Assembly (NCBI GenBank): GCA_019745365.1 | Contig: JAIETI010000001.1 | Location: 1-51,509, forward strand | Direction: 5' to 3' | Length of the DNA stretch: 51,509 nucleotides | From: Gemmatimonadaceae bacterium | Lineage (GTDB): Bacteria; Gemmatimonadota; Gemmatimonadetes; Gemmatimonadales; Gemmatimonadaceae | Translations under genes and position numbers: made by a program | The notes under the pieces: generated by a model | Database searches by the model: none | Told to the model about the DNA's origin: nothing | What the model saw: the letters and a program-made list of their open reading frames with translations, nothing else | Shown: piece after piece, positions 16,484-33,139 of the stretch | Layout: each line of letters begins with the position of its first letter | Position numbering within the stretch: position 1 is the first letter of the stretch

Positions 16484-17344
16484 TCATCCGCGCGGCGGTG
16501 CGCCTCCCGCCTCGACCGTGGCCAGGATCTCGGCGCAGCGCTTTCCCCACGGATTGAACTTGTTCGTCTGGAACCCGGTGGTCCACGCCGCCTTGGCCGC
16601 GTCGAACTCGTCGTTGAACCAGTGCGCGCGCCCCATCTCATAGTACGCTTCGATGAGATTCGGCCCGAGCACGAGTGTCTTCTGGAAGAAGGTCTGCGCG
16701 TCCTCGTACATCTCACGCTCGAGGTACACGAGCCCGAGGTAGAAGTGCGCGTAGAGGGTGGCCTTCTTGTCGTTGTCGAGGCGGATCGCCTTGGAGAGAT
16801 GCTCGATCGCCTCGCCGAAGATCCGCTTCTTCAGACAGATGTAGCCCACGTTGATCCGCGCGAGCGCGTTGGCGGGCTCGCGCATCAGCACCTTCTGGAA
16901 GTTCATAAGCGCGTCGTCGTACTTCTCCTGGAGCATCTGTGCCCAGCCGAGGAGCGCCTCCGCCTGCGGATCGTTCGGACTCAGCTCGAGGGCACGGTTG
17001 AGCGACGCTTCCGCGCCTTCGTGATCGCCCAAGGAGAGGCGACTCCATCCCTTCTCGATGAAGGTCGAGGCACCGATGTGGTCGGCGTGCACCACGGGTC
17101 GGTCGGCGACGAACTGCGGCGCGGCGGTCGCATCGGCGGCCTGCTGCGCCTTCCACTTGTCCACCAACGACTTCACGTCATCGCGCAACGTGCTCGCCTC
17201 GGTGACGAGCTGTTCGAGCGACTTGAAGAGCGTGATGATCTCGCCCTTGAGCGCCTGTCGCTCGGCAGCGGGCAGGGCGGCGTCGAGCCGTCGATCGATG
17301 TCGGCGAAGGTAGCGCGGTGAGCCGCGAGGAGCGTGTCAGGCAT
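16484..17344 (-). CDS. Cytoplasmic TPR protein of the chemosensory cluster
   Basis: 286 residues without signal or membrane segment. Residues 1-75 are charged and helical, probably coiled coil. From about 95 onward there are five or six TPR units, for example GWSRLSLGDHEGAEASLNRA and ALMNFQKVLMREPANALAR. The start overlaps the cheW stop by 8 nt, placing it firmly in the Che operon. It is likely a scaffold for signalling components; the partner is not evident. Confidence 0.85.
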   Translation of the reverse strand: MPDTLLAAHRATFADIDRRLDAALPAAERQALKGEIITLFKSLEQLVTEASTLRDDVKSLVDKWKAQQAADATAAPQFVADRPVVHADHIGASTFIEKGWSRLSLGDHEGAEASLNRALELSPNDPQAEALLGWAQMLQEKYDDALMNFQKVLMREPANALARINVGYICLKKRIFGEAIEHLSKAIRLDNDKKATLYAHFYLGLVYLEREMYEDAQTFFQKTLVLGPNLIEAYYEMGRAHWFNDEFDAAKAAWTTGFQTNKFNPWGKRCAEILATVEAGGAPPRG

Positions 17345-17816
17345 GCGGGACCTCCGCGGCGGCCTGCTCGAGGAGGAGCCGTTCGCGGCTCGTGAGGAGG
17401 GCGTGGGTATCGAGCACGACGATCACCTGTTCGTTCCGTGAGAAGGTGCCCTGGAGATACGCACCCGCGAGCCCCTTGAAGAGCTCCGGGGGCGCCGAGA
17501 TGTCGGCCGCCGTGAGCGTCGCGACTTCGAGTACTTCGTCGACCACGGCGCCCACGCGTGCACCGCCGATATCGACGACGAGGACCCGCGCGAGTGGACG
17601 CGTCGCCGATGCCAGCTCGAACCGCGCCCGCAGGTCGATCACGGGGAGGACGTGTCCTACGTAGTCGATCACTCCCGCCATCCAGGGCGGGAGATCGGGG
17701 ATCGGGCGCGGGGGCGAACAGCGCAGCACCCGCTCGACCACGCGGATCTCCGCCGCGAACAAGTCGTCCCCTACGCGGAACGTCACCATCTGGCGCCGCT
17801 CGTCGGCCTGCGTCAT
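17337..17816 (-). CDS. cheW: CheW coupling protein
   Basis: 159 residues of a single CheW domain: QMVTFRVGDDLFAAEIRVVERVL, then PPWMAGVIDYVGHVLPVIDLR, VLVVDIGGARVGAVVDEVLEV and AYLQGTFSRNEQVIVVLD. CheW links CheA to receptor arrays. The ATG overlaps the stop of the preceding CheW-like gene (ATGA). It is one of three CheW-family genes in this run. Confidence 0.93.
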   Translation of the reverse strand: MTQADERRQMVTFRVGDDLFAAEIRVVERVLRCSPPRPIPDLPPWMAGVIDYVGHVLPVIDLRARFELASATRPLARVLVVDIGGARVGAVVDEVLEVATLTAADISAPPELFKGLAGAYLQGTFSRNEQVIVVLDTHALLTSRERLLLEQAAAEVPHA

Positions 17817-18250
17817 CCCGCCTCCTCCTCCGCGCGCAACACGCGCGCCACCAAGGCATCCGTCTCCACCACACCCGTCACCCGCCCGGCGGTGAGCGTG
17901 ACCGCACGCAACACGCCGACCGGATCCATCCCACCCGGGACCGCCTGCAACGCCTCACCTGCCGGGCGCACCAGCTCGCCCACATCATCCACCCGCACCG
18001 CGACCGTCCGCGCGCCGACGGCGAAGACGAGCGCCGTCCCCGCACCCTCGCCATCGCGCGCGATGCCACAGAGCAGCGCGAGATCATAGAGCGGGACGGT
18101 GCGCTCCCGGTGCACGAACTGTCCGCAGAGTGCCGGTGTCCGTGTCGCGACCGCGTGCACGACCGGGGCGTCCACCGCCGCCTCGACCGAGGCGACGTCG
18201 AACGCGAACCAGTGCGCGCCCACGCGCGTGACGAGGAGTTCACGGTTCAT
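17813..18250 (-). CDS. Divergent CheW-like protein
   Basis: 145 residues. The CheW fold is recognisable from ELLVTRVGAHWFAFDVASVEAAVD, then FVHRERTVPLYDLALLCGI, LVFAVGARTVAVRVDDVGELV and a C-terminal AGRVTGVVETDALV. The usual hydrophobic G-x-I-N-x-R-G strand is altered to CGQFVHRERTV, so receptor or CheA contacts may differ. The ATG start overlaps the cheB stop (ATGA). Confidence 0.82.
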   Translation of the reverse strand: MNRELLVTRVGAHWFAFDVASVEAAVDAPVVHAVATRTPALCGQFVHRERTVPLYDLALLCGIARDGEGAGTALVFAVGARTVAVRVDDVGELVRPAGEALQAVPGGMDPVGVLRAVTLTAGRVTGVVETDALVARVLRAEEEAG

Positions 18251-19317
18251 CGCACCGCCGCCGGTTGCTGCACCCACTGAGCGATCGCCGTCGCGATCTG
18301 CTTAAGCGGCAACTGTGCATCGGCACCCGCGACGCTGAGCGCCACCTGTGGCATCCCGTAGATCGTCGAACTCTCGCGGTCCTGCACGATCGCACCGCCT
18401 CCAGCCGCGCGGAGCAGTCGGAGCCCTTCGGCGCCGTCGCGCCCCATCCCCGTCAGGATCACACCGAGCGCCGACGCGCCCACCGCCGCCACGGAAGCGA
18501 GCAGCGGATCGGCCGCAGGCCGGACCCCCCACACCGTCGGTCCCGCATCGAGGACGACCGACGGCTGCCCGGCGACCGCGTTGACGAGCAGGTGCCGTCC
18601 TCCCGGCGCGAGCACGACTTCCCCGTGCCGCAGCGGCGCCCCGTCGCGCGCTTCGCTCACCGAGAGCGCGCTCATCGCGTCGAGCCGACTCGCGAGACCC
18701 GCCGTGAACCCCGTCGGCATGTGCTGTACCACGAGGACCGCCGCGTCGAGCTCGGCGGGGAGCTGCGGGATCACCTCCGCGAGCGCACGCGGGCCCCCGG
18801 TGCTCGCCGCGATCACGACCACCCGCGTTGCGGCCGCCGCACGGGGCGCGACGCGCGCGGGGCCCGCGACCCGCGGGCGCGCCAGCACGGGTACGCCGCG
18901 CACGTTCATCTCGCACGCCGCGAGGAGTGCCGCGTGCAAGCGGTCGCGCACCGCGTGCACCTCCTTCAGCGCACCGCCGCTCGGCTTCCGCACGAAATCC
19001 ACTGCGCCGAGCTCCAGGGCGCGCAGTGTGAGATCCACGTCCCCGCGATCGCTCGCCGCGCTGAGCATGACCACGGGGCGCGGCGTCTCGCTCATGATGT
19101 AGCCGAGCGCAGCGAGGCCGTCGAGTTCGGGCATCTCGATGTCCATCGTCACGATCGCGGGATCGAGCGCGTGGACCTTCTCGAGCGCGTCGTGCCCGGT
19201 GCGCGCCGTGCCGACCACGGTGAACTCCGGGAAGGCACCGATGAGGTCGGAGATCATCGCGCGCATGAAGGCGCTGTCGTCCACGACGAGCACGGACCGC
19301 CGCGACTCAGAGGACAC
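18247..19317 (-). CDS. cheB: CheB, protein-glutamate methylesterase/deamidase
   Basis: 356 residues. Receiver domain with VLVVDDSAF and phosphoacceptor D59 (VTMDIEMPELDG), a linker at about 135-165, then the methylesterase domain with S172 (IAASTGGPRAL), H199 (VQHMPTGFT) and D294 (GMGRDGAEG), a complete catalytic triad. It demethylates chemoreceptors after phosphorylation by CheA. GTG start at 19315-19317, overlapping cheD by 11 nt. Confidence 0.96.
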   Translation of the reverse strand: MSSESRRSVLVVDDSAFMRAMISDLIGAFPEFTVVGTARTGHDALEKVHALDPAIVTMDIEMPELDGLAALGYIMSETPRPVVMLSAASDRGDVDLTLRALELGAVDFVRKPSGGALKEVHAVRDRLHAALLAACEMNVRGVPVLARPRVAGPARVAPRAAAATRVVVIAASTGGPRALAEVIPQLPAELDAAVLVVQHMPTGFTAGLASRLDAMSALSVSEARDGAPLRHGEVVLAPGGRHLLVNAVAGQPSVVLDAGPTVWGVRPAADPLLASVAAVGASALGVILTGMGRDGAEGLRLLRAAGGGAIVQDRESSTIYGMPQVALSVAGADAQLPLKQIATAIAQWVQQPAAVR

Positions 19318-19789
19318 GCTCGCCCTCCCGGAGACTGCGGACGCGCATCGCACCGGTCGCGACGTCGAAGAACACACTGCGCCCGACCGTGCCGCCGACC
19401 TCCTCGGCCACCAAGGGCACCGCCGACGCCGCGAGCGCCGCGCGTGTCGCCACGATGTTGCGCTCCCCCATCCCCCCCGCCCCACGCGGCGTGAGCACCG
19501 AGGAGAACAGACTCGCGCCGCCTGCGATCTTGGCGGTGAACGGTCCCTGCGCGCCGGCCGCACGCATCTGCGCCAACAGGTGCGGGACGGCGGTCGCCGG
19601 CGTCTTCGCCGGGTCGTCCCCGGCACGCGTCATCGCGGGATCAGGGAGGAGGATGTGCGCGAGTCCACCGACGCGCGCGCGGGCGTCGTGCACCGCGATC
19701 GCGATGCAGGAGCCGAGCCCGAAGGTCACGAGTCGCCCCTCGCCCTGCCGGACCGCGGCGTGCGCGATGCGCACCGTCACGTCGCTCAC
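19307..19789 (-). CDS. cheD: CheD, receptor glutamine deamidase
   Basis: 160 residues. The catalytic Cys28 is in TFGLGSCIAIAV and His45 is in GGLAHILLPD. KIAGGASLF and ERNIVATRAAL complete the family pattern. CheD deamidates receptor glutamines and, in Bacillus and Thermotoga, binds CheC; a CheC homologue lies in the same run at about 30.2-30.8 kb. GTG start coupled to cheR (GTGA). Confidence 0.95.
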   Translation of the reverse strand: MSDVTVRIAHAAVRQGEGRLVTFGLGSCIAIAVHDARARVGGLAHILLPDPAMTRAGDDPAKTPATAVPHLLAQMRAAGAQGPFTAKIAGGASLFSSVLTPRGAGGMGERNIVATRAALAASAVPLVAEEVGGTVGRSVFFDVATGAMRVRSLREGERVL

Positions 19790-20595
19790 GGTCGGCGGAA
19801 GACGCGTTGCCGCGCGTCCACCGTGTCGAAGAGTGTGCGGGTCGGCCCGAGGAGCGTCTCGACCTTCCCGAGGACGAGGTACCCCCTGGGGGCGAGCGCG
19901 TCGTGGAAGCGCTGCATGAGCGCGTCCTGCGTGGGCTTGTCGAAGTAGATGATCACGTTGCGGCAGAGCACCAACTGCATCGGCCCCGCGGGGAGCGGAT
20001 CGAGCAGCAGATCGCGTCGCTCAAAGCGCACGAGGGCGCGGAGCGCGTCGCTGGCTCGGTGTGGCGCGTCGGCGCTGAAGTAGCGCGACCGCATCGCCGC
20101 CGGCGTCTCGCTGAACGCGGCGGGCGCATACGCCCCCGCCTCCGCTCGGGCGAGGCTCCCGCGGTCGATATCGCTCCCGAGGATGGTGACGCGGTCGGCC
20201 GCGCGTGCGCCAAGCGCGGATGCGTGCGCGTCGAAGAGCGCCGCGAGCGTGTACGCTTCTTCGCCCGAGGAGCTCCCGGCACTCCACACGCGGATCGGCC
20301 CTGGCGCCCGCCAGAGTGTCGGGATCACCTCGGCCGCGAGGAAGGCGAATACGTCGGGATTCCGGAAGAGCTTCGTGACGTTGATCGTCAACGCATCGAG
20401 CAGCTTGTCGTACTCCGCGGGATCGTGGTCGAGCAGGCGCGCGTACGCATCGAAGTCCGCCGCACCGCGCGCGCGCATCCGCACCGCGATACGGCGCCGG
20501 AGGCAGCTGTCCTTGTAGCCGCCGCAACCGAAACCGCGATCGCGCGTGATCTTCGCCGTGAGCGCGGTGAACCCCGCGTCGTCCGTCGCGGTCAT
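19786..20595 (-). CDS. cheR: CheR, chemoreceptor methyltransferase
   Basis: 269 residues from the ATG that overlaps the preceding stop (TGATG); a GTG one codon earlier is an equal alternative. An N-terminal helical domain is followed by the SAM fold: RVWSAGSSSGEEAYTLA, ILGSDIDRGSLARA and LVLCRNVIIYFDKPTQ. It methylates receptor glutamates, opposing CheB. Confidence 0.95.
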   Translation of the reverse strand: MTATDDAGFTALTAKITRDRGFGCGGYKDSCLRRRIAVRMRARGAADFDAYARLLDHDPAEYDKLLDALTINVTKLFRNPDVFAFLAAEVIPTLWRAPGPIRVWSAGSSSGEEAYTLAALFDAHASALGARAADRVTILGSDIDRGSLARAEAGAYAPAAFSETPAAMRSRYFSADAPHRASDALRALVRFERRDLLLDPLPAGPMQLVLCRNVIIYFDKPTQDALMQRFHDALAPRGYLVLGKVETLLGPTRTLFDTVDARQRVFRRP

Positions 20596-22217
20596 CACCC
20601 GCCGCGTCCGCGCAACGCGTCGAGGTTCGTCCGCACGATCTCATTGCCCGGATCGAGCTCAAGCGCGCGCTCCCAGCAACGCAGCGCCTCGTCCCGCTCA
20701 CCGCGTTTGAGACGGATGTTGCCAAGCCGAAGATACACGTCCGGGCCGAGCGCGTCGTTGAACTTGATCGCGCGGCCATACGCCTCCAGCGCCTCATCGA
20801 ACCGGCCGCTGCGATAGAGCGCGTCGCCGGCGTTCTTGTGCAGCGGCGCGAGCCCCGGTTCCTCCTGGATCCCCGCCTCGGCACGTGCGAGCGCCTCCGC
20901 GTACTTCCCCTTCCGCTCGAGCACCACCGCGAGGTTGTTGTGGAGCGGCGCAGCGTGGGGATGGAGCTCGACCCCCTCGGTGAGGAGCGCGAGCGCCTTG
21001 TCGAGCTGTCCGTTCAGCGCGGCGGTGAGGGCGGCGTAATGGAACCAGACCGCGCTCGGCGGCCGCTTGCCGAAGAGCGGGCGCGCGGCCATGAAGGCCG
21101 CATCGGCCTCGATCAACTCGCCCGCCTGCAGCGCGAGCACCCCGACGGTCGTCTGCACGCGCGGATCACTCTCACCCCCACGCCGACGTGCCTCGTCGAG
21201 CACGCGCTGCGCTTCCGCGGGCCGCGCGAGCCGTTCAAGGGCGAAGGCGAGGTTGTGATGCACGGCGAAGGGTGCCGTGCGCGACTCGGTCGCCGTGCGG
21301 AAATCACCCTCGGCGAGCTCCCAGCGCCCCTGGCGTGCGTACACGAGCCCGAGCACCGATCGCGCGTGCGCGTCGTCCGCGCGCAGATCGAGCACACGCT
21401 TGAACTCACGCGACGCCTCGTCGAGCATCCCGGTCTTGAAGAACGCGATGCCCAAGTTGCGATGCTCGTCGACCCGCGCGTCTGGCGCGACCTCGGCGAC
21501 GGTCTTGGTCTTCCCCACGCGATGCAGGAAGCCGGCCGTCGCGAGCCCGTACAGCGCCTTCCCGACATCGAACTCCACCATCCCCGTCTCGTCGATCAGC
21601 GCCTGCACATCACGGCGCCCGTCGAGGAGGGTGATGATCGTCTCCTGTTCCGTCGTCAGCGCCACGCCGCTCTGCCGCAGCCGCGCCTGGTCGACCTCGA
21701 ACACCAGATCGAAACTCGGGATCTTCTTCTCGATCAGACTCCACTCGTCCACGCGGCGCGCGCCTTCGAGCAGGAGCGACTCGGGATTGATCGCGACGAG
21801 GTAGTCCTGCTCCTCGGGGCGGATATCCGCCTCGAAGTTGAAGGTCCCCTGCGTCCAGGTGAAGAGGAAGTACACCGCCTCTTCGATCTGCGAGCGGATC
21901 TGCGTGTGCAGATCGTCGCGCGAGAGCATCCCCTCGCCCACGAGGATCTCACCGAGTCGCGTGTCGCGCTTGCGCGACTGGATCGCGATCGCGAGATCGA
22001 GCTGCTCCTGCGTGAGGACGCCGCTCTTCACGAGGATGTCGCCGATCCGGTCGCGTCGGTTCACGATCGACGCGTAGCTGATCCGTCCCTTATCGAAGTA
22101 GATCGAACCGAAGTTGGAGCGATGCGTGACGGAGAGACAACCGGTCTTCTTCCCCATCGCCAGGAGCTGCAGGACGTCGGGGAGACTCGCTTCCTTGAGA
22201 GAGCCGCGGATCGCCAT
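20595..22217 (-). CDS. DUF4388 (PATAN-like) plus TPR protein
   Basis: 540 residues. Residues 1-100 are a DUF4388/PATAN module: GSLKEASLPDVLQLLAMGKKTG, GSIYFDKGRISYA. A second segment at 65-250 holds GDILVKSG, RLGEILVGEG and TQGTFNFE, and residues 250-535 are TPRs (for example NNLAVVLERKGKYAEALARA). DUF4388 proteins are common partners of MglA/Che-type signalling in Deltaproteobacteria and Gemmatimonadota. It has a paralogue at 26.5-27.5 kb in this run. It directly abuts the stop of the tandem DnaA-like gene. Confidence 0.85.
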   Translation of the reverse strand: MAIRGSLKEASLPDVLQLLAMGKKTGCLSVTHRSNFGSIYFDKGRISYASIVNRRDRIGDILVKSGVLTQEQLDLAIAIQSRKRDTRLGEILVGEGMLSRDDLHTQIRSQIEEAVYFLFTWTQGTFNFEADIRPEEQDYLVAINPESLLLEGARRVDEWSLIEKKIPSFDLVFEVDQARLRQSGVALTTEQETIITLLDGRRDVQALIDETGMVEFDVGKALYGLATAGFLHRVGKTKTVAEVAPDARVDEHRNLGIAFFKTGMLDEASREFKRVLDLRADDAHARSVLGLVYARQGRWELAEGDFRTATESRTAPFAVHHNLAFALERLARPAEAQRVLDEARRRGGESDPRVQTTVGVLALQAGELIEADAAFMAARPLFGKRPPSAVWFHYAALTAALNGQLDKALALLTEGVELHPHAAPLHNNLAVVLERKGKYAEALARAEAGIQEEPGLAPLHKNAGDALYRSGRFDEALEAYGRAIKFNDALGPDVYLRLGNIRLKRGERDEALRCWERALELDPGNEIVRTNLDALRGRGG

Positions 22218-24152
22218 CTAGCGCAGCTCCTCGATGAGACGCGCACTCGCGTCGGGCCAATCCCAGATCACCTTCTCGCGGTCGAGGAAGACCGCAACAT
22301 CGCCGATCCCCTGACTCGAACGACGCACCGGCGCGCGCTCATCGAGCGCGGTGAGCCCAAGCTCCGCGCGCGCGAGCGTGGCATTCAGCGGCTCGCCCGC
22401 GGCATCGGCCGCGGCGCCCAAACGGTGCACGAGCCCCGCGATCTCCCGCACGCTGTGGATCGGATGCTCCCCGAGCGCGCGCAGCAACGACGGGTCGGTG
22501 GGGCGCCCCGCCGCGAGCAGATAGCGCGCGAACAGGCGCTCCCGGAGCTCGCGATCGGGCGACTGGATCGGCGTGGAGAGTCCGCCCTCGAACCGCGAGC
22601 GCAGCCGCGCTTCGAGCTCCGGGATCTCCGCGGGCGGGCGATCGCTCGTGAGGAGGATCTGTTGCCCCGCCTCGATCATCGCATTGAAGACGAGGAAGAA
22701 CTCCTCCTGCGTGCGCTCCTTCCCCGCCACGAACTGCACATCATCGACGACGAGCACGCCGGCCGAGCGATAGCGCGTGCGCCACCGTTCGACCGTGCCC
22801 CCTTGGATCGCCGCGATCAACTCGTCGATCAGCTGCTGCGCGTGCACGCAGGCCACGACCGTCGCACCGCCACTCTGCGCCGCGATCGCATTCCCGATCG
22901 CGTGCACCAAGTGCGTCTTCCCCACCCCGCTCGGTCCGTACACCAGCAACGGGTTGTACTTCCGCCCGGGCTCCGAGATCACCGCATCCGCCGCGTGCAC
23001 CGCAAGCTGATTCGATGACCCGACCTCGAACCCCTCTCGCTGGAACGACGGGCTCGGGCCGCCCGGTGGCGTGGTCCCTTGGAGCGCCTGCTCCACGAGA
23101 TCCTCGGCCTCCGCCATCCGTTCCGGATCGCGGAACACCGCATGACCACCGAGCGCGGGATCGACGGCGGCGGCCTGTGTCGCCAGCCCGCGCAGATGCT
23201 CGACGGCCGCGGCGAAGGTCGCCATGAGCCCGCTCACGTCAGGTTCGCGCGGCAACTCCAGCGCGCGTTCCAACACCGCCGTGCGGTACCCCTCCCCCGC
23301 CCAGTACGCGATCGACTCCTGCAGTCGCACCTGCCAGCGCTCCATCTGCTGCTGCACGACCGTCTGCATCTCGGAGAGGAAGCTCTCGAACTCGGTCCCG
23401 CTCGCACGCGCCTCGGTGCGATGCATCGGCGCGGACGGCGTGGAATGCGTGCCGAGAATGCGGGGCACATCGATCGCCTGCGCCCGCTCGCCGATGGCGA
23501 TCACGGCTTGCACACGCGTCAACGCGCCCAAGAGCTCGCGCACACTCGGATACGCCACCCGCCCCACTTCTTCCAGCACCCCTGGTTCGAAGCTGAGTCC
23601 GCGCTCAGCCGCGACGACGCGCAGGATCGCGACGCGCGTCTCGAAGTCGGGTGGCGCCACGTCCACGACGAGCCCGCCGCCCAGGCGACTCACCAACCGT
23701 TCATCGAGCCCCGCGATCTCGCTCGGCGGCCGGTCGGAGGTCATCACGAGCTGATTGCCACGCTCCATGAGACTCGTCGCAAGCCGGAGCAACTCGGCCT
23801 GCGCCTCGCGCTGCCCGGCGAGGAACTGCACATCATCGAGAAGGAGCATGTCCACGCGGTCGAAGCGCTGCGCGAGGAGCGCGGTCTCGCCCGTCGAGAT
23901 CGCCATCATCCACCGCGCGCGGAGTTCGTCGAGCGTCAGGTACTCGATCTCGAGATCGGGCTGCAACAGCGACGCGAGTTCCGCCACAGCGCCGAGGAGA
24001 TGCGTCTTGCCGAGCCCGGGCCCGCCGTAGATGTAGAGCGGGTTGTAGGTGGTCGCCGGGGCCTCCGCGACGGCACGCGCCGCCGCGGCCGCCAAGCGGT
24101 TGCCGGCGCCGATGACCAGCGAGTCGAAGCGATGGCGCGGATCGAGCGGCAC
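22218..24152 (-). CDS. Tandem DnaA-like AAA+ ATPase without DNA-binding domain
   Basis: 644 residues with two complete DnaA-type AAA+ modules. Module 1 has Walker A at about 43-50 (GGPGLGKT), Walker B LLLDDVQFLAG, sensor 1 VMTSDRPPSE and an arginine-rich LDERLVSRL. A helical linker (about 245-370) follows. Module 2 has Walker A at about 406-413 (GPSGVGKT), LVVDDVQFVAGKERTQEEFF, LLTSDRPPAEI and LEARLRSRFEGG. DnaA domain IV, with its DnaA-box helix-turn-helix, is absent; the end is a short tail KVIWDWPDASARLIEEL. The GTG at 24150-24152 starts 4 nt after the mglA stop behind GGGGGA; an upstream start overlapping mglA is possible. Its operon context points to signalling or polarity, not replication. 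Confidence 0.88.
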   Translation of the reverse strand: MPLDPRHRFDSLVIGAGNRLAAAAARAVAEAPATTYNPLYIYGGPGLGKTHLLGAVAELASLLQPDLEIEYLTLDELRARWMMAISTGETALLAQRFDRVDMLLLDDVQFLAGQREAQAELLRLATSLMERGNQLVMTSDRPPSEIAGLDERLVSRLGGGLVVDVAPPDFETRVAILRVVAAERGLSFEPGVLEEVGRVAYPSVRELLGALTRVQAVIAIGERAQAIDVPRILGTHSTPSAPMHRTEARASGTEFESFLSEMQTVVQQQMERWQVRLQESIAYWAGEGYRTAVLERALELPREPDVSGLMATFAAAVEHLRGLATQAAAVDPALGGHAVFRDPERMAEAEDLVEQALQGTTPPGGPSPSFQREGFEVGSSNQLAVHAADAVISEPGRKYNPLLVYGPSGVGKTHLVHAIGNAIAAQSGGATVVACVHAQQLIDELIAAIQGGTVERWRTRYRSAGVLVVDDVQFVAGKERTQEEFFLVFNAMIEAGQQILLTSDRPPAEIPELEARLRSRFEGGLSTPIQSPDRELRERLFARYLLAAGRPTDPSLLRALGEHPIHSVREIAGLVHRLGAAADAAGEPLNATLARAELGLTALDERAPVRRSSQGIGDVAVFLDREKVIWDWPDASARLIEELR

Positions 24153-24156
24153 GAGC

Positions 24157-24762
24157 TCAGCGTCCCCCGGCGGTCGTGGGGCTGAGCCGACGGAGCACGA
24201 GCTCACTGATCCCGCGGAGCGTCTCGAACACCCCGGGGCCGTGCAACGCGTCCGCCGAGTAACTCGGCACGCCGCGGAAGTTGAGCTGGTCCTCGAGTTC
24301 GGCCACGGGAAGGATGAGATCGCCTGGGAGATCCTGCTTGTTGTACTGGATCACGAGCGGGACGCCCCGCGCATCGACGCCATGGTCGGCGAGGTTCGCG
24401 TGCAGATCCTGGAAGCTCTCGATGTTCTCCGCCAACTGCCGCGACTGACTGTCGGCAACGAAGACCACGCCATCCGCCCCCTGCAGGACCAGCTTCCGCG
24501 TGGCCTGGTAGTACACCTGCCCCGGCACGGTGTAGAGCTGGAATCGCGTCGTGAACCCCGAGATCGTCCCGAGGTCCAGCGGGAGGAAGTCGAAGAACAG
24601 GGTGCGGTCGGTCTGCGTCGCGAGCGACACCATCTGCCCTTTCCGATCGGAGGGCACCTGGCCGTAGATGTAGTGCAGGTTCGTCGTCTTCCCCGACCGC
24701 CCAGGGCCGTAGTAGACGATCTTGCACGTGATCTCTCGGGTCGCGTAGTTGACGAGGCTCAC
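24157..24762 (-). CDS. mglA: MglA-type polarity GTPase
   Basis: 201 residues. P-loop G19-PGRSGKT, switch II TVPGQ (T78, in place of the Asp of other small GTPases, an MglA hallmark), VFVADSQ, and NKQD at 141-144. MglA is the Ras-like switch that sets cell polarity and directs gliding or type IV pili in Myxococcus, with roadblock MglB as its GAP. GTG start at 24760-24762. Roadblock genes lie immediately upstream and the tandem DnaA-like gene follows. Che genes in the same run suggest chemosensory input to polarity, as in Frz-MglA. Confidence 0.94.
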   Translation of the reverse strand: MSLVNYATREITCKIVYYGPGRSGKTTNLHYIYGQVPSDRKGQMVSLATQTDRTLFFDFLPLDLGTISGFTTRFQLYTVPGQVYYQATRKLVLQGADGVVFVADSQSRQLAENIESFQDLHANLADHGVDARGVPLVIQYNKQDLPGDLILPVAELEDQLNFRGVPSYSADALHGPGVFETLRGISELVLRRLSPTTAGGR

Positions 24763-24805: not shown

Positions 24806-25276
24806 TCAGGCGCGCCCGAACATCACAGCAAGGTTCTTGTTGAGTTCCTTCTCGAAATCCGCCGCGATCGCGGGCGCATTGTGCGCGATCGGTGGCGCCA
24901 TCTCGCCGACCCGCGCACGGAACTCCTCGTGATACAGTTGGAGCAGCCCGAGCGAACTCTCCCAGTCGAACACGGCCAACAGCAGGAGCCGCCCACCCGG
25001 CGCGGGCACCTCGGCCAAGAAAATCTGTCGCTCGCGTCCCGCATAGTGCAAAGAGGGGAACGCCTTCCCTTCCACGAGCATCCCCAACGCCCGCGACGAC
25101 GCATCGATCGCTGCTGCCAGCGCGCAGGCGGTCATCACGTCCACACTGCGCGCGAAGCCATACTGACCGAGCACCTGTCCGCTCGGGTGCAGGAGCACGG
25201 CGTAGTGCACGCGGGCATCATCCACGAACTGCTTCAGGGGCGCCTCGACCCACGACGCGGCGACCGACATCCTCAT
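24806..25276 (-). CDS. Roadblock/LC7 protein, probable MglB
   Basis: 156 residues with a single roadblock/LC7 fold: WVEAPLKQFVDDARVHYAVLLHPSGQVLGQ, MTACALAAAIDASSRALG and RQIFLAEVPAPGGRLLLLAVFD. Its position 43 nt before mglA matches mglB in known systems, where it acts as the MglA GAP. Start ATG overlaps the preceding roadblock gene stop (ATGA). Assignment as MglB is by family and context; symbol withheld because a second roadblock gene is a rival. Confidence 0.82.
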   Translation of the reverse strand: MRMSVAASWVEAPLKQFVDDARVHYAVLLHPSGQVLGQYGFARSVDVMTACALAAAIDASSRALGMLVEGKAFPSLHYAGRERQIFLAEVPAPGGRLLLLAVFDWESSLGLLQLYHEEFRARVGEMAPPIAHNAPAIAADFEKELNKNLAVMFGRA

Positions 25277-25623
25277 GGGAGTCGCTCCACCGCTTTGAGG
25301 AGCTCCACGCGCAACAACCCGACATTGATCCGGGCTTCCGCGACGACGATGAACACCAGTTCGTTCTTCCCCGCCGCCAACACGCGCCCATCCACGGCAT
25401 CGAGCTCGAAGTATCCCGTGCGGCCGAGCCCCGCGGCCTCGGCGGAGCGCCGCGCCTTGCGGTAGAGCGACGCGGTCAGCGCGGCGAAGGCCGCGCCATT
25501 CACGCCGACCTGCAACACCGAGTCCACCACGAGCCCGTCATCCTCGCCCACGAGCAGCACGCCGGTGACCCCGCGGTGCCGGATGATCGACTGCAGCAGC
25601 GGCGCAAAGGGCGTCGTCGCCAT
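25273..25623 (-). CDS. Roadblock/LC7-domain protein
   Basis: 116 residues, one roadblock domain: PFAPLLQSIIRHRGVTGVLLVGEDDGLVVDS, FAALTASLYRKARRSAEA and GYFELDAVDGRVLAAG. Start ATG at 25621-25623 overlaps the upstream stop by 1 nt. Roadblock proteins dimerise and regulate small GTPases. Together with the neighbour it could form an MglB-type heterodimer, or modulate it. Confidence 0.83.
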   Translation of the reverse strand: MATTPFAPLLQSIIRHRGVTGVLLVGEDDGLVVDSVLQVGVNGAAFAALTASLYRKARRSAEAAGLGRTGYFELDAVDGRVLAAGKNELVFIVVAEARINVGLLRVELLKAVERLP

Positions 25624-26531
25624 CACTCCCCCACCCACGCACGGATGCGATCCGCCGCGCGGTCGAGCAACCGGCGCAGGAAGCCGAGCGGCACGGTGCG
25701 CGCCGCCGCCACCAGCGTGAGCCCCTGCCCGACCGGGGCCATGGCGACGCTCGCCACCTCGGTCTCGAAGACGATCTGCGTCCACGCGCCGAAGCCGAAG
25801 TGCCGCATCGCGCGCGTGGCCTCGTCGCTCACGCCGGAGAGTTGTGCGCCGACTTCCGCCGCAAGATCGCGACCGTCTTCGGTGAGGTAACGGCCCGCGA
25901 GCACGAGCCCCGCCTCGTCGAGATGCATCGCGGCGCCGGGGACGTCGGTGAGGAGATCATCGAAGAGGATCGCCGCATCGGCGCGACTCCAGGTCGCGCG
26001 CCGCGCGAACGGCGCGACGCCCGACGCCGTGATCGGCGCCGGTTCCTCGACGGCGGGGATCATCGTCGTGCTCCGCTCGCGCTCGTCCGCGACGGGTGCG
26101 GTGACCGCTGCCGACGAACGAGGCCCGGCCATGGCTGCCGCGCGCACCGTGTCCAACGCCGCCGCCACCGACGCGTCGTCGGGGTCCTGCTCCGCCACAG
26201 CGGCCAGATACGCCGCTGCCTCAGCGAAACGCCCCTGTTGGAAGCAGATGAACCCGAGTCCCTTCTGCGCGTCGCGATGATCGGGCACGAGCCGCAGGAC
26301 CGACTCCCACGAGGCCGCGGCCTCGTCGAGCGCCTGACGGTCGAGCGCGATCCGCGCACGCACGTCGTGCCCGTCCACCAGCGAGGGATGCCGTTCCACG
26401 CCCTTCGCCGCCACGCGCGCCGCCACGTCGAGATCCCCACGCTTGCGCAGCGCCTCGGCGAGCGCGACGAACGCCACGCTCGACGGGTCGACCGCGAGCG
26501 CTTCGGAGAGAGCGCGGATATCGTCAGCCAC
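25623..26531 (-). CDS. TPR protein with C-terminal roadblock-like domain
   Basis: 302 residues. TPRs at about 1-130 (for example GLGFICFQQGRFAEAAAYL), an Ala/Pro-rich linker with ERERSTTM, then a C-terminal roadblock-like domain (about 185-300): AAILFDDLLTDVPGAAMHLDEAGLVLAGRY and VSDEATRAMRHFGF. It may bring a roadblock unit to a scaffold. GTG start at 26529-26531 overlaps the DUF4388 gene by 8 nt. Confidence 0.78.
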   Translation of the reverse strand: MADDIRALSEALAVDPSSVAFVALAEALRKRGDLDVAARVAAKGVERHPSLVDGHDVRARIALDRQALDEAAASWESVLRLVPDHRDAQKGLGFICFQQGRFAEAAAYLAAVAEQDPDDASVAAALDTVRAAAMAGPRSSAAVTAPVADERERSTTMIPAVEEPAPITASGVAPFARRATWSRADAAILFDDLLTDVPGAAMHLDEAGLVLAGRYLTEDGRDLAAEVGAQLSGVSDEATRAMRHFGFGAWTQIVFETEVASVAMAPVGQGLTLVAAARTVPLGFLRRLLDRAADRIRAWVGE

Positions 26532-27483
26532 GCGTGTCCTCCATCAGCGCTTGCAGCGTGAGCGCCGCGGTGAGTGCCTCGCGCACGCGCGCACTCTCGG
26601 CATGCGCGCCGTCCGCGGCGAGTGCGGCCGACCAGATCCGCGCCGCCTCGCGCAGATCGCCGCGCTTGAGCGCCGCCGTCCCGTCGGCGAGCGGGGACGA
26701 CGCCGGCGCCGGAGACGCCGGCTCTGCGATGGGGAGCATCCCGCCCGAGGTCGCGCGCGCCGGCGCGCGCAGCTCGACCACTCCGGTGGAGATCAGCCCA
26801 TACATCACCTTCGCGACGTCGAACTCCGACCGCGAGAGCTGCACCGCGATCGAGCGCAGGTCATGCTCCCCGTCGATGCTCGTGAGCACCTCCCACTCGC
26901 TCGGCAGGAGATCGAGCTGTGACTGGTGCGCCGGGTCCGCGGGCGCGAAGCGCGGGATGTGCGCCAAGCTCGGCACGCGATCCGCGATCCGTGACCACTC
27001 ATCGATGCGCCGCGCCGCCTCCATCAGTACGGACTCGGTCGAAATCCGGAGCGCGGAATCCACCGGCATGGCCGACGCACTCCCCTCCTCGAAGCGGAAG
27101 AACCCCTCGCGCCACGACATCATCTCGAACACGACGGCCTCGACTTGCAGCCGCACCTGGCGCTCGAGCTCCTTGGAGGTGATGGCGCCCATCGCGAGCA
27201 GGATCTCGCCCAGACGGCGGCGATCGCCGCGCTCGGTCTGCGCGGCGCGCGCGGCGGTGAGATCGCCCTCGCTGATCTTCCCCGCTTTGAGCAGCATCGC
27301 GCCGAACGGGTACGGATTCGACTTGATCGCCGCCGACACGATCTTCCCGGCGTCGAAGTACACCGTCCCCTCGTTGTCGCGCAGCGCCGAGGTGACGCGC
27401 AGCGTCCCCGTCTTCCGGCTCAGGTCGAGGAGCTGGAAGACGTCGTGGATGCCGAGTTCGCGGAGTGGGCCTTCGATCGCCAT
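26524..27483 (-). CDS. DUF4388 (PATAN-like) protein
   Basis: 319 residues. The N-terminal DUF4388 module is clear: MAIEGPLRELGIHDVFQLL, SRKTGTLRV, GTVYFDAGKIVSA. Further segments match the paralogue at 20.6-22.2 kb, including RRLGEILLAMGAIT and ESVLMEAARRIDEWSRI. It ends without TPRs. The two paralogues bracket the roadblock, mglA and tandem DnaA-like genes. The start lies 3 nt after the preceding TPR gene. Confidence 0.83.
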   Translation of the reverse strand: MAIEGPLRELGIHDVFQLLDLSRKTGTLRVTSALRDNEGTVYFDAGKIVSAAIKSNPYPFGAMLLKAGKISEGDLTAARAAQTERGDRRRLGEILLAMGAITSKELERQVRLQVEAVVFEMMSWREGFFRFEEGSASAMPVDSALRISTESVLMEAARRIDEWSRIADRVPSLAHIPRFAPADPAHQSQLDLLPSEWEVLTSIDGEHDLRSIAVQLSRSEFDVAKVMYGLISTGVVELRAPARATSGGMLPIAEPASPAPASSPLADGTAALKRGDLREAARIWSAALAADGAHAESARVREALTAALTLQALMEDTRG

Positions 27484-27486
27484 GGG

Positions 27487-30198
27487 CTACCCCTTCCCTA
27501 CGCGGCCACCGAAGACGTGGAGCAGATCCTGCGCGCTCCGCGCCTCACGCCGCGCCCGCCGTGCGAACTCACCGGCCGGTTCGAGATCTACCACCCGCTC
27601 CCAACTCGCGATCGCCTCGCGCCAGCGCTTGTCCTGCGCCAGGAGCACGCCCTCGTAGAAGAGCGCGCCCACATGCTCCGGATCGAAGCGTCGGATCCGC
27701 GCGAAGGCGACCGCCGCATCGCCGGCGCGTCCCTGGTCGAGAAGCGCTTCGCCGAGCGCGAGCATCGCGTCGAAGTGGTAGGAGTCGCGCTGCAGCAACT
27801 CCACCAAGAGCGCGATCGCCTCGCGCCCTCGCCCCAACTCGCGCCGCAGGCGCGCCAGCTCGAGCGTGGCTTCCGCGTAGGTCGGCACCGCGTCGAGCGC
27901 GGCAAGCAACTCCTGCTCCGCCTCCGCCAACTCGCCGCGCTGCGCCAAGAGTCGCGCCAGATCGAAGCGCACCGCGGCAAAATCGCCGTCGAGCGTGAGC
28001 GCGTGCCGGTAGTACTCCACCGCATGCTCAAGGTCGCCCATCGAGCGACTGATGTTCCCCATCCAGCGCAGGACATCAGCGCGCTGCGGCGCGAGGGTGC
28101 GTGCCGACTCCAGCGCGTGCAAGGCGTCCGCCGGATCCCCCGCTTCGAACCGCGCCGACGCGGCGAGCATGAGTGCGTCCACATCGTCCGGCGCGAGGGC
28201 GAGCACTGCATCCGCCGCCTCGGCCGCCTCGGGTCCACGCCCGAGCATCAACAGCGCCTGCGCTTCGCCGCGCACGGCCCGCATATGATCCGGCTTCGCC
28301 GCGCGCGCGGCGCGATACCGCTCGAGCGCATCGCCCCACGCGCCCTGCCGCGACAACACGTCACCGAGCAGCGTCGCCCCGATCGCCGGGTCGGCCCCGC
28401 GGGCCATCGCGCGACTGATCTCCGCACGCGCGCGGTCGAGCAGCCCCTTGGTGAGGTAGTCGGTCGCCATCGCGAAGGCGTCGGCGGTGAAAACCACCTC
28501 CGGCGTCGCCTCCGGCGGCGGCGCGAGCTCGGTGAAGAGCGAGTCCAACAAGCGCGGATCGAACGAGAAGGTGTCGACCTCACCGCTCATCCGCTGTTCC
28601 CCACCCAGATCGGGGACCACGGACAGATCGGGGTCCTCGTACTCGAGATCGATCGCGAGCGCGAACTTCTGCGCCACGTAATAGGGATCGAGCTCGAGCG
28701 CACGCTTCGTCTCGCGGAGCGCACCGTCGAAGTCGCCGAGGTTCGAGAGGGTGAAGCTCAGGTTGTAGTGCGCTTCGGCATGCTCGGGCTTGCTCTGGAT
28801 CGCGCGCGCGAAAGCGTTCTTCGCATCCTCGAACTTGCGCAGCTCCGCCAGCACGACGCCGATGCCGTTCCACGCGAGGTGCTGCTCGGGCTCCGTGACG
28901 AGCACCTGCCGGTACGCCTCGAGCCCGAGATGGAACCGCCGCCCCTTGCAGAGCAGCAGCGCCAGGTTGAGCCGGGCCTTCACGAACGCCGGATTGCGAT
29001 TGAGCGCCGTGCGGAACGCGTCCACGGCTTCGTCGCTCTGCCCAAGATGGAAGAGCGCGACGCCGAGGTTGTTGTGGGCGAGCGCGTACTCCGCATCGAC
29101 CGCGACCGCGCGCCGGTAGCTCTCGACCGCCGCCGCGACATCACCCACCTGATGCAACGCCACGCCGCGCTCGTTCCAGAGCTTGGGACTCTCGGCGCGC
29201 TCCGTCAGGAGTCGGTCGTACAGCTCGATCGCGGCCGTGGGGTCCTTCCGCAGTAGATGCACCTCCGCCATCGCCTGCAACACGAGCGCGCGGTCTTCGC
29301 CACGCTCCATCGCCAGTCGATACTCGCGGAGCGCCTCGGTGAAGTACCCCTTCTGGCGGAACGCGAGTCCGAGGTTGAAATGCGCGAGCTGCCCTTCGGC
29401 CACCGCCATCAGCGCCTGTGACCGCCGCTCCTGGCGCCCCGGGAGCAGCGCCTCGTACTTCTGCGGATCGTATTGGTCGAGCGAGAGGTTCGCCTGCGCG
29501 CGCGAGAGCGTGGGGTTGAGCTGCACCGCCTTCTTGGACGCGGCGCGCGCCTCCTCATGCCGCCCGAGGTCGCCGAGCACGAAGGAGAGGAGGAAGTGCG
29601 CGTCGGGGTTGTCTGGATTGAACCGGATCGCGCGCTCGAGCGCCTCGATCGCCTCCTCCATCCGCCCCTGGTTATACAGCACCTCACCGAGGTGGAACAG
29701 GTTCACCGAGCTCGACGGATCGAGCGCGATCGCGCGCATGAACCAGTCGTGCGCGGCGCCCAACCGCCCCACGGTCTTCTCGGCCTGCCCGAGCTGGATC
29801 ACCGCCGCGAGATCGTCGGGGTGATGCCGCAGCAACGCGGTGAACTCCGCGATCGCATCCTCATGCTGGCCGAGCAGCGCGTACGCGCGCCCGAGTTCCC
29901 AGCGGGCATCGCGATCCTCGGGGCGCGCGCGGAGTCGTTCGCGCAGCTCCGCCACGCGGCGATCGTAGTACCCCGTGTTGAAGTAGGCGATCTCGAGGTT
30001 GCGCTGCGCGACCTGCATCTTCGGGTCGAGCTCGAGCGCCTGCGTGAAGGCGCTGACCGCCTCCTCGTGGAGTCCCTTGTTGTAGTAGAGGACGCCCAGG
30101 TTGTTGTGGGCGCCCGCATCTGACGGGTCGATCCGCTGCGCAAAGCTGCGCAGGGCGGCACGGTCGCGATCCGAGGAGAGCGCGGCCGCGCTGGACAT
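27487..30198 (-). CDS. Large TPR protein
   Basis: 903 residues, almost entirely tetratricopeptide repeats (about two dozen), with no signal peptide or membrane segment. Good units include AHNNLGVALFHLGQSDEAVDAF and ALFYEGVLLAQDKRWREAIASW. An interruption near residues 520-560 (DPDLSVVPDLGGEQRMSGEVDT) divides the array. The ATG overlaps the cheC stop by 1 nt; a GTG one codon earlier is an alternative. A cytoplasmic scaffold for the signalling proteins around it is a reasonable inference. Confidence 0.85.
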   Translation of the reverse strand: MSSAAALSSDRDRAALRSFAQRIDPSDAGAHNNLGVLYYNKGLHEEAVSAFTQALELDPKMQVAQRNLEIAYFNTGYYDRRVAELRERLRARPEDRDARWELGRAYALLGQHEDAIAEFTALLRHHPDDLAAVIQLGQAEKTVGRLGAAHDWFMRAIALDPSSSVNLFHLGEVLYNQGRMEEAIEALERAIRFNPDNPDAHFLLSFVLGDLGRHEEARAASKKAVQLNPTLSRAQANLSLDQYDPQKYEALLPGRQERRSQALMAVAEGQLAHFNLGLAFRQKGYFTEALREYRLAMERGEDRALVLQAMAEVHLLRKDPTAAIELYDRLLTERAESPKLWNERGVALHQVGDVAAAVESYRRAVAVDAEYALAHNNLGVALFHLGQSDEAVDAFRTALNRNPAFVKARLNLALLLCKGRRFHLGLEAYRQVLVTEPEQHLAWNGIGVVLAELRKFEDAKNAFARAIQSKPEHAEAHYNLSFTLSNLGDFDGALRETKRALELDPYYVAQKFALAIDLEYEDPDLSVVPDLGGEQRMSGEVDTFSFDPRLLDSLFTELAPPPEATPEVVFTADAFAMATDYLTKGLLDRARAEISRAMARGADPAIGATLLGDVLSRQGAWGDALERYRAARAAKPDHMRAVRGEAQALLMLGRGPEAAEAADAVLALAPDDVDALMLAASARFEAGDPADALHALESARTLAPQRADVLRWMGNISRSMGDLEHAVEYYRHALTLDGDFAAVRFDLARLLAQRGELAEAEQELLAALDAVPTYAEATLELARLRRELGRGREAIALLVELLQRDSYHFDAMLALGEALLDQGRAGDAAVAFARIRRFDPEHVGALFYEGVLLAQDKRWREAIASWERVVDLEPAGEFARRARREARSAQDLLHVFGGRVGKG

Positions 30199-30818
30199 CA
30201 CTGGACCCGGATCGCCTTGAGGATCGCCTGCAGTGACGCGGCGTCGGGGAGCAGGAGGAAGAAGCCGCGCAGCCGTTCGCCGGACTCCTGCATGTAGAAC
30301 TCGCTCTCCACGCAGAGCACCGAGTCGGTCCCCTGCGTCGATTCGAGATACGTCGCGCTCAAGAGCGCGTCGCTCATGTCCACCTCAAGCGAGGGTGGCG
30401 AGTTGAGGAGGATCATCCCCATGAACTCCGCGAGCGCATTGAGATACGCGCCGGAGAGGATATTCCCCGCTTCCTGTAGTGCTGAGCGTTCGAATGCGCC
30501 TAGGCTGGTCGAGCTCCCCGCGGCGCGGCGCGCCATCATCTCGGCGAGCCGCAACGCCGTCGGCGTCGGGAGCACGAGCAGCGTCAGTCCCGTGAGGTCG
30601 CCCATCATCCGCATCAACACCGCGGCGACCGGCTCCTCCGGCTCGCTGATGTGATTGGGCATCTCGTCTAGCGGCGCCACGTTGATCGTGGGCACACTGA
30701 TCATGATCGTGTGCCCCGTCATCTCGCTGAGCGCGGTCGCGGCGTGCCCCGCCCCAATGTTCGCGACCTCGCGGAGGGCGTCCAACTGGATCGCACCGAG
30801 TCTCGGATTCTCTTCCAT
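30198..30818 (-). CDS. cheC: CheC-type CheY-P phosphatase
   Basis: 206 residues. Two phosphatase helices are visible: EVANIGAGHAATAL (E17, N20) and EAGNILSGAYLNAL (E116, N119), both with the E-x2-N pair that dephosphorylates CheY-P. CheC and CheD often regulate each other, and cheD is in the same operon. ATG at 30816-30818 is preceded by AGAGGA. Confidence 0.92.
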   Translation of the reverse strand: MEENPRLGAIQLDALREVANIGAGHAATALSEMTGHTIMISVPTINVAPLDEMPNHISEPEEPVAAVLMRMMGDLTGLTLLVLPTPTALRLAEMMARRAAGSSTSLGAFERSALQEAGNILSGAYLNALAEFMGMILLNSPPSLEVDMSDALLSATYLESTQGTDSVLCVESEFYMQESGERLRGFFLLLPDAASLQAILKAIRVQ

Positions 30819-30826
30819 CGCGTCCT

Positions 30827-32734
30827 CTAGAGGAGACTGCCGACATCGAGGATCAGGGCGGGCGCCCCATCCCCCAGGATCGTCGCACCACTGAAGATCG
30901 CGAGCCCATCGCGCACCGCGTCGATCGGCTTCACCACGATCTCCTGCTGTCCGGTCAATTCATCCACGAGCAGCGCCACGCGGCGCTCCCCGCGCTCCAG
31001 CACCACGATCTCACGCCCCTCGCCCGTCGGCTGCCGGACCACATCCCGCAGCAACAGGAGCGGCATGACCTCGTCCCGCAACACGAGCACGGGGCGCCCC
31101 TGCATCGACTGCACCGCGTCGGCGGTCGCTTCCACCGTCTCCCGCACATGTGTCAGCGGGAGGGCGTAGTGCTCCGCCCCACTGCGCGCGAGCAGCGCAC
31201 GCACGATCGCCAGCGTGGAGGGAAGCCGCAGCGTGAGCGACGTCCCCATCCCCGGCATCGTGCGGAGCTCGACGGAGCCGCCGAGCTCACGCACGCGTGC
31301 CTGCACCGCATCCACGCCGACCCCGCGCCCCGAGAGATCCGACACCTGATCCGCCGTCGAGAAACCCGGCCGCGCGATGCAGCGAAAGAGCGCATCGTCG
31401 TCGAACACCGTCACGCTCGGGTCTACAAACCCCATCGCATGCGCGCGGCGCAGCACCTTCTCGCGATCGATCCCCTTCCCATCGTCGCTCACGCGGATCA
31501 GCACCGACGCCCGGTCCCGGAGCGCGCTGAGCGTGAGCCGCCCCGTGCGCGGCTTCCCGACCGCCACGCGGGTCTCGGGTGACTCGAGCCCATGATCGAT
31601 CGCATTGCGCAGCAGATGCACCACCGGCTCACCGATCTCATCGAGCAGCGAGCGATCGAGTTCGATCTCCTTCCCCTCGACGATGAACTCGACCTCCTTG
31701 CCGAGCTGTCGTGCGGCGTCGCGCACCATGCGCGGGAAACGATCGAATACCTGCCACACCGGGACCATGCGCGCGGTCATCACCTCGCGCTGCAGATCGC
31801 TCACCAGTCGCGCCGTCGTCTGCACGACCTCATCCACGCGGGCATCCCCGATCCCCGCAGTGAGCTGCACCAGTCGCCCGCGCGCGATGACGAGCTCGCC
31901 GACGAGATCGGTGAGTGCGTCGAGGCGCTCCGTCTCGATGCGTACGTGCCGCGCGGCCCGCGTGCCCGGTGTTGACTGTTCGACGGCCACCGGCACCTCG
32001 ACCGTCGGCCGCGTACGCCCTGGCCCCGTGGCGACGTGCACCTCCGCGACCTCACCGGCGCTGCGGATCGCCGCCTCGAGCGTCGCCGCATCAGCGGTCG
32101 TGACCACGCGCAGCGCGAACGCTTGCGGCGTCGTCGCCTGCTGGAGCACGTCCGGCGTCGGCGACACCGCGGTCACCGTGCCGAGCGCACGCACCTTCTC
32201 GATCGCCATGTACGCCCGCACGCCGGGGAGCATCGCGTCGCTCGACTGCCGCACGCGCACGAGGATCCCCTCAGCGTCGTCGACGGAGTGCGCGGCCGCG
32301 AGCGGGATCGCGTGCTCCATTGTGTGCTGGAAGGCGCGATACTCCGACGTCGCGCGGCCACCCGCGAGCTCATGCAGCTGCTCCAGCACCGGGACCATCG
32401 CGGGCACGCCGCCCCCACCCTCCTGCGCGCGCTCCACCCCTTGCTCGAGCGCGTCGACCGCGCCGAAGAACGCGTCCATCAACTCCGGCGTGACGATCAG
32501 ATCGCCGCTGCGCACCCGCTCGAACAGACTCTCGAGTTCATGCGTGAACTCGGCGAGCGCGGTGTACCCCATCGAGCCCGCCATCCCCTTGAGCGTGTGC
32601 ACCGCGCGAAAGAGCGTGGTGACCGCATGCGCCGCATCCGCATCCTGCTCCAGGCTCAGCAGGGCGCGATTGATCTCCGCGAGCTGTTCTTGGCTCTCGG
32701 TGCGGAAGAGCTCCGCGTATCGCGCAGCGTCCAC
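30827..32734 (-). CDS. cheA: CheA, chemotaxis histidine kinase
   Basis: 635 residues. P1 domain with H46 in FRAVHTLKGMAGSMG. A P2-like region spans about 170-240. A dimerisation helix comes next, followed by an ATPase domain with N-box LLRNAIDHGLE, VSDDGKGID and SGRGVGVDAVQ. The C-terminal CheW-like domain has HYALPLTHVRETVEA and ERRVALLVDELTGQQEIVVK. Phosphoryl goes from H46 to CheY and CheB. GTG start at 32732-32734, 22 nt after cheY. Confidence 0.96.
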   Translation of the reverse strand: MDAARYAELFRTESQEQLAEINRALLSLEQDADAAHAVTTLFRAVHTLKGMAGSMGYTALAEFTHELESLFERVRSGDLIVTPELMDAFFGAVDALEQGVERAQEGGGGVPAMVPVLEQLHELAGGRATSEYRAFQHTMEHAIPLAAAHSVDDAEGILVRVRQSSDAMLPGVRAYMAIEKVRALGTVTAVSPTPDVLQQATTPQAFALRVVTTADAATLEAAIRSAGEVAEVHVATGPGRTRPTVEVPVAVEQSTPGTRAARHVRIETERLDALTDLVGELVIARGRLVQLTAGIGDARVDEVVQTTARLVSDLQREVMTARMVPVWQVFDRFPRMVRDAARQLGKEVEFIVEGKEIELDRSLLDEIGEPVVHLLRNAIDHGLESPETRVAVGKPRTGRLTLSALRDRASVLIRVSDDGKGIDREKVLRRAHAMGFVDPSVTVFDDDALFRCIARPGFSTADQVSDLSGRGVGVDAVQARVRELGGSVELRTMPGMGTSLTLRLPSTLAIVRALLARSGAEHYALPLTHVRETVEATADAVQSMQGRPVLVLRDEVMPLLLLRDVVRQPTGEGREIVVLERGERRVALLVDELTGQQEIVVKPIDAVRDGLAIFSGATILGDGAPALILDVGSLL

Positions 32735-32756
32735 GGGGATCAGCGCGCGGCGGAGG

Positions 32757-33119
32757 TCAGCCGAGCACGCGCTGGACGGCCTCCAGCACCCGGCTGGGCT
32801 GGAAGGGCTTCACCACAAAATCCTTCGCCCCCGCTTGGATCGCCTCGACCACGAGCGCCTGCTGCCCCATCGCGGAGCACATGAGCACGCGCGCGGCGGG
32901 ATCGAACTTCACGATCTCGCGCACGGCATCGATCCCGCCCATGTCAGGCATCACGATGTCCATCGTGACGAGGTCGGGGCGCAACTGCTTGTACTTCTCC
33001 ACCGCCTGCGCACCGGTCTCGGCCTCGCCCACGACCTCGTAGCCGGCTTGCTGCAGGATGTCGCCCACCATCGTGCGCATGAAGATCGCGTCGTCGCAGA
33101 TGAGCACCGTCGAAGCCAC
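32757..33119 (-). CDS. cheY: CheY response regulator
   Basis: 120-residue stand-alone receiver domain: D9/D10 (LICDDAIF), phosphoacceptor D54 (VTMDIVMPDMGG), S82 (LMCSAMG) and K104 (FVVKPFQP). The start is a GTG at 33117-33119 behind GGGAGGAGAA. No DNA-binding output domain, so it acts by protein contact, either on a motor or on the MglA module. Confidence 0.95.
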   Translation of the reverse strand: MASTVLICDDAIFMRTMVGDILQQAGYEVVGEAETGAQAVEKYKQLRPDLVTMDIVMPDMGGIDAVREIVKFDPAARVLMCSAMGQQALVVEAIQAGAKDFVVKPFQPSRVLEAVQRVLG

Positions 33120-33139
33120 TTCTCCTCCCGGGAACTGTG

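Follow-up and report, generated by a model that had tools for sequence, protein, structure and literature searches.

Why should a protein built of two DnaA-type ATPase modules be encoded among chemosensory and small-GTPase genes, when, to our knowledge, such AAA+ domains serve almost solely in replication, helicase loading and transposition? The question is raised by a gene, here dnaA2, in a 51,509-nucleotide stretch of the genome of a Gemmatimonadaceae bacterium (the window).

Architecture of DnaA2

The first-pass annotation placed the gene correctly, without noting that it lies on the minus strand. The GTG at 24152 is the start that matches the conserved N-terminus of the family; the longest frame begins at 24206 and encodes 662 residues, and residue numbers given here for DnaA2 (K67, R538, W650 and so on) refer to that frame. 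The features of the protein are as follows.

22218 to 24152, minus strand: tandem DnaA-type AAA+ protein DnaA2, 644 residues, GTG start at 24152
23442 to 24149, minus strand: module 1, residues 20-255, complete AAA+ site
23073 to 23405, minus strand: middle helical domain between the modules, residues 268-378, about 110 residues (from the A1 alignment and the AF2 prediction)
22353 to 23057, minus strand: module 2, residues 384-618, intact in the window protein
22221 to 22298, minus strand: C-terminal peptide containing EKVIWDWPDASARLIEELR

The presence of two DnaA-type modules in one protein is confirmed by two matches to Bac_DnaA (PF00308; 337 bits, E 2e-101 in the Pfam search, and 176.6 and 167.8 bits for the separate modules against a cut-off of 23 in the genome scan) and by full ATPase signatures in both. 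Full-length orthologues are 43-59% identical and the gene order is the same across the phylum, so the tandem architecture is not a chance event. AF2 predicts two DnaA domain-III folds, a confident middle bundle of about five helices and a disordered tail; the best clean Foldseek match is domain III of Bacillus subtilis DnaA (8bv3, TMt 0.91, 2.0 Å). In the A1 alignment the middle domain has an invariant G and a near-invariant W and DP (of FRDP), and searches of the PDB and Pfam found no relative of it. The short tail that follows module 2 has the pattern EKVIWDWPD...RLIEELR.

Relationship to DnaA, Hda and the helicase loaders

DnaA2 shares with DnaA domain III the AAA+ fold, Walker A and B, sensors 1 and 2 and the box VII arginines, but it carries two copies per chain, has its own middle domain and tail, and lacks domains I and IV. 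The chain starts at domain III. A Pfam search for Bac_DnaA_C gave no match, and just 44 residues follow module 2, which AF2 predicts to be disordered rather than to form a C-terminal helix-turn-helix; the proposal that the DNA-binding domain is missing is thus borne out. The idea that the middle domain is a disguised domain IV was ruled out (hhalign probability 0.5%). DnaA2 nevertheless exceeds the cut-off of the curated DnaA equivalog model (TIGR00362; 456 against 343.9 bits, over two stretches), presumably as the summed effect of its two modules, and genomes that bear it may for this reason receive an extra "dnaA" call. The canonical dnaA lies elsewhere in the same assembly (contig C110), where a separate DnaA of 462 residues has the C-terminal motif RDHSTVIH; we infer that this protein, and not DnaA2, is the working initiator.

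Hda resembles DnaA2 in being a DnaA-type AAA+ protein that has no domain IV. It differs in that it has just one module and an N-terminus that binds the clamp; inspection of the DnaA2 N-terminus, VPLDPRHRFDSL, revealed no β-clamp motif of the QL[SP]LPL type, and DnaA2 scores 159.8 bits against the curated Hda model, under its cut-off of 194.8. DnaC, DnaI and IstB (helicase-loader and transposase-helper ATPases) belong to a related AAA+ clade, with weaker matches that all fall under the NCBIfam curated cut-offs.

The description of the modules as very close to DnaA itself proved too strong. In a module tree the first and second modules each form one fully supported group, separate from DnaA and Hda. 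Approximately unbiased (AU) tests reject neither an internal duplication of the modules (p-AU 0.55) nor the joining of module 1 or module 2 to the DnaA of the phylum (0.19 and 0.35, respectively).

The two ATP sites

Module 1 of the window protein has the signatures GGPGLGKTHLL (K67), DDVQFLAG (D124/D125) and TSDRPPSEI, a box VII DERLVSR (R170/R174) and a sensor-2 R223. The corresponding elements of module 2 are GPSGVGKTHLV (K430), DDVQFVAG (D488/D489), TSDRPPAEI, EARLRSR (R534/R538) and R587. Across the family (residue counts in Escherichia coli DnaA numbering), the catalytic residues of module 1 are almost always kept: K178 in 43/44 sequences, D235 in 44/44, and R285 and R334 in 42/44 each. 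Module 2 is different. The equivalents of R281 and R285 (R534 and R538 here) are present in 57/57 sequences, against 46/57 for K178, and many relatives have lost sensor residues and the lid. The pattern is sharpest in one taxonomic family, f5, where K178 and D235 of module 2 are found in 0/8 sequences each and R281/R285 in 8/8. The otherwise conserved columns lost from module 2 of f5 are those of Walker A, Walker B and the lid, and those retained are R281-L282-R285-E287-G288-G289-L290-V291 together with basic positions on the ISM side. Module 1 of f5 retains 63/78 conserved columns, with K178, D235, D236, D269 and R281 in 8/8 sequences and R285 and R334 in 7/8.

The arginine finger of the second module is therefore kept independently of its own ATP site. 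Since R285 of DnaA is the finger that reaches toward the ATP of the adjacent protomer (PMC12122000), module 2 is most simply read as serving module 1. Retention of the finger segment could instead be structural and not catalytic, and, because module 1's own finger is likewise conserved, intermolecular oligomers are equally possible. The intramolecular AAA+ pair suggested in the first-pass annotation thus gains circumstantial support from the manner in which module 2 degenerates, but AF2 yields no confident arrangement of the two modules (pTM 0.44, no interdomain confidence). There is a likeness, which we do not take for homology, to the clamp-loader δ′ subunit and other pseudo-ATPase finger donors, which have lost nucleotide binding and kept the finger, as module 2 has in some relatives; in DnaA2 the pair is in one polypeptide and of DnaA descent.

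DnaA domain III forms filaments, and in most genomes both modules present a Walker site and an arginine finger face, so DnaA2 might polymerise head to tail, as a filament or ring, into a cytoskeletal scaffold that would serve CheA, MglA and the PATAN proteins as a polar hub. We regard this as quite improbable: in families f4 and f5 module 2 has lost nucleotide binding, the lid or both, which would cap the filament, and the relatives without any AAA+ module described below could not polymerise in this way.

The ssDNA-binding motif prompts another reading. Module 1 has lost K243 and R245 (the window protein has Q and E at these positions). Module 2 has DnaA-like basic residues there, R498 of the window protein being the equivalent of R245, and among its relatives the R245 equivalent is found in 41/44 sequences and that of K243 in 33/44; R223, R225 and R245 persist even in f5. 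Hda, moreover, uses its arginine finger on DnaA-ATP. DnaA2 might accordingly act on DNA or RNA through module 2, or on DnaA-ATP as Hda does. This seems to us rather improbable, given that there is no domain IV, that module 1 is without the ssDNA residues (R/E), that no clamp-binding N-terminus is visible and the Hda cut-off is missed, that the operon is one of signalling genes, and that some relatives have no module at all.

Distribution and conserved neighbours

Searched with a profile built on the middle domain (A1), 148/249 Gemmatimonadota genomes (135/230 of the high-quality ones) contain the family, almost always at a single locus per genome. The same profile found no representative in five f10 genomes, which belong to the phylum and lie outside the class of the window. 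A single pattern-based scan covering 84,980 species genomes yielded ten DnaA2 loci, all in Gemmatimonadota, and a Deinococcus plasmid locus that has MglA with a roadblock gene has no DnaA-type neighbour. In the window dnaA2 is surrounded by the following genes.

16484 to 20598, minus strand: CheR, CheD, CheB, CheW and CheW-type genes plus one for a TPR protein (identified from sequence alone)
20595 to 22217, minus strand: PATAN (DUF4388)-TPR protein, its ATG directly after the TAG stop of dnaA2
24157 to 24762, minus strand: MglA-type small GTPase (Pfam), ending 4 bp upstream of dnaA2
24806 to 26531, minus strand: three roadblock/LC7-type proteins (24806-25270, a weak Pfam match; 25273-25623; and a TPR-roadblock protein, 25623-26531)
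26524 to 27483, minus strand: PATAN protein (Pfam)
27487 to 30201, minus strand: TPR protein of 904 residues (Pfam)
30198 to 33499, minus strand: CheC, CheA, CheY (32757-33107) and CheW (33140-33499)

The PATAN-TPR protein and this second PATAN protein are the only two PATAN proteins found in the assembly (90.6% complete). With local variations, loci of six families share the order CheY-CheA-CheC-TPR-PATAN-TPR/roadblock-roadblock-roadblock-MglA-[DnaA2]-PATAN/TPR-CheR-CheD-CheB-CheW-TPR. This conserved position beside CheA, MglA and PATAN genes upholds the assignment of DnaA2 to a signalling rather than a replication context, with f5, which has PATAN-TPR only, as the exception. The f5 loci (L106-L114) hold the dnaA2 and PATAN-TPR pair and no MglA or che genes around it, and the 904-residue TPR protein has no copy in eight f5 genomes tested. 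At L111, the f5 locus examined in detail, a pseudouridine synthase/IleRS/DivIVA block flanks the pair at one end and Peptidase_MA at the other; the whole operon in the window has the same flanks. The f5 pair may be either a minimal ancestral unit or the result of operon loss.

Two features of these flanks deserve mention in their own right. The operon has, a few genes farther upstream, a gene for a DivIVA-type polar protein (39559-40056); one also lies near the f5 pair at L111. The IleRS frame (35091-38693) has, at its C-terminus, a zinc finger of the DksA/TraR type (PF01258, E 2e-8); its L111 counterpart has no PF01258 match.

In every one of the distinct loci (49/49), dnaA2 is followed immediately by PATAN-TPR. 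Outside f5, an upstream MglA is present in 37/39 loci, the exceptions being genomes G003 and G031, which keep a dnaA2-family gene and have no operon MglA. Thus the original emphasis on mglA as the neighbour describes most loci, but the constant partner is PATAN-TPR and not MglA, because f5 keeps the pair in the absence of MglA and Che genes. These observations also bear on whether DnaA2 is an MglA-specific regulator, either GEF- or GAP-like or an effector partner. Such a role would suit a gene that follows mglA immediately and shares a syntenic operon with three roadblock genes. We consider it unlikely, as the gene persists where the operon MglA is missing, both in f5 and in the two exceptional genomes, and as the universally conserved part of the protein is a short helix and the tail, not the AAA+ modules.

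In one f5 metagenome-assembled genome (G228; L114:3890-4789, minus strand) DnaA2 and PATAN-TPR share an open fused frame of 1051 residues, in which the PATAN ATG is replaced and a possible GTG start lies at the junction; no such fusion was found in 15 other f5 genomes. In the window, the TAG stop of dnaA2 and the ATG that follows share a reading frame, and we ran the tail and PATAN-TPR through AF2 as one read-through chain. The tail was disordered (pLDDT 21-34) and made no contact with PATAN, in an alignment that held only four tails.

A reduction series and its conserved core

The tandem form is found in f1 to f5, and single-module forms, which must function without module 2, occur in f6, f9 and some f1. 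The relatives in G015 and G031 consist of the middle domain and tail, with no AAA+ module. Six genomes, from two genera (L116-L121), have between mglA and PATAN-TPR nothing but an unannotated frame of about 70-90 residues, which combines the tail with helix 1 of the middle domain (one reads ...ETKTIVEWPE..AYVIEELR*). The tail, still present in these microproteins and in the AAA-less relatives, is highly conserved: W650 in 42/42 sequences, E644, R656 and E659 in 41/42 each and K645 in 40/42. Since relatives run from tandem through single to none and then to the short remnant, the AAA+ modules are optional; as far as sequence can tell, the tandem AAA+ part is dispensable and not the essence of the family. 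Trees of both modules broadly track the taxonomic families, so the tandem state would be ancient, with loss of modules a likelier course than their repeated gain.

The repeated loss of module 2, of its lid and finally of both modules might be taken as the decay of a relic, a duplicated dnaA caught in the operon and disappearing under weak selection. We think this very improbable: the catalytic residues of module 1 are kept in 42-44 of 44 sequences, the gene is single copy in nearly all of the 148 genomes, and even the remnants retain both the motif and the position.

A proposed role for DnaA2

We suggest, as a tentative reading to which we give a little less than even weight, that DnaA2 is a DnaA-derived AAA+ protein without a DNA-binding domain, mounted on an adaptor core, whose intramolecular pair gates engagement of the PATAN-TPR protein, probably in the control of twitching. 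The core, a small signalling or adaptor unit, would consist of the middle-domain helices and the C-terminal W-x-WP...IEE peptide. At the level of sequence, this core adjoins the PATAN-TPR gene in all loci examined, the modules are optional, module 1 has a complete ATPase site, and module 2 keeps its finger face even when nucleotide binding is lost. Modules 1 and 2 would fold back onto one another so that the finger of module 2 completes in trans the ATP site of module 1, like adjacent DnaA protomers in a filament; the clamp-loader δ′ supplies a finger in a comparable manner. ATP binding or hydrolysis would then alter the engagement of PATAN-TPR by the middle domain and tail, making DnaA2 an ATP-gated switch or scaffold toward the PATAN-TPR output. 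Where CheA and MglA genes exist, it would link chemosensory and polarity signals to that output. We infer the pair, the gate and the partnership, and engagement of PATAN-TPR by the core is the weakest link.

Twitching control is plausible because PATAN domains of cyanobacteria are tied to PilB, the extension motor of the type IV pilus (PMC7690835), and because the genome of the window has genes for pilus ATPases of the PilT family. Co-occurrence with PilT is uninformative, since PilT is near-universal in the phylum (238/249 genomes).

A literature search, with subscription papers mostly outside its reach, turned up neither a tandem DnaA-type protein nor a DnaA-type gene in MglA/PATAN loci. The survey of MglA/MglB-PATAN loci by Wuichet and Sogaard-Andersen (2014, PMC4316618) describes adjacent MglA, roadblock and PATAN genes like those seen here but does not mention a DnaA-type protein in its text. 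DnaA2 is a DnaA-clade AAA+ protein and possibly has a new function. It is conceivable, though we hold it with some doubt, that ATPases of this clade were recruited from replication to chemosensory and small-GTPase polarity systems, as an optional composite ATP switch, a single chain that unites an active ATPase with its own finger donor, on a very small PATAN-binding adaptor that also occurs as a standalone microprotein. If this is true, a phylum-wide tandem protein devoid of the DNA-binding domain, in a motility-signalling operon, would broaden the roles of DnaA-clade ATPases. Comparison within the family would separate the ATP-binding half of an AAA+ pair from the half that supplies the finger, and the stepwise shortening, from two ATPase modules down to a core of about 70-90 residues, opens the function of the PATAN proteins to testing.
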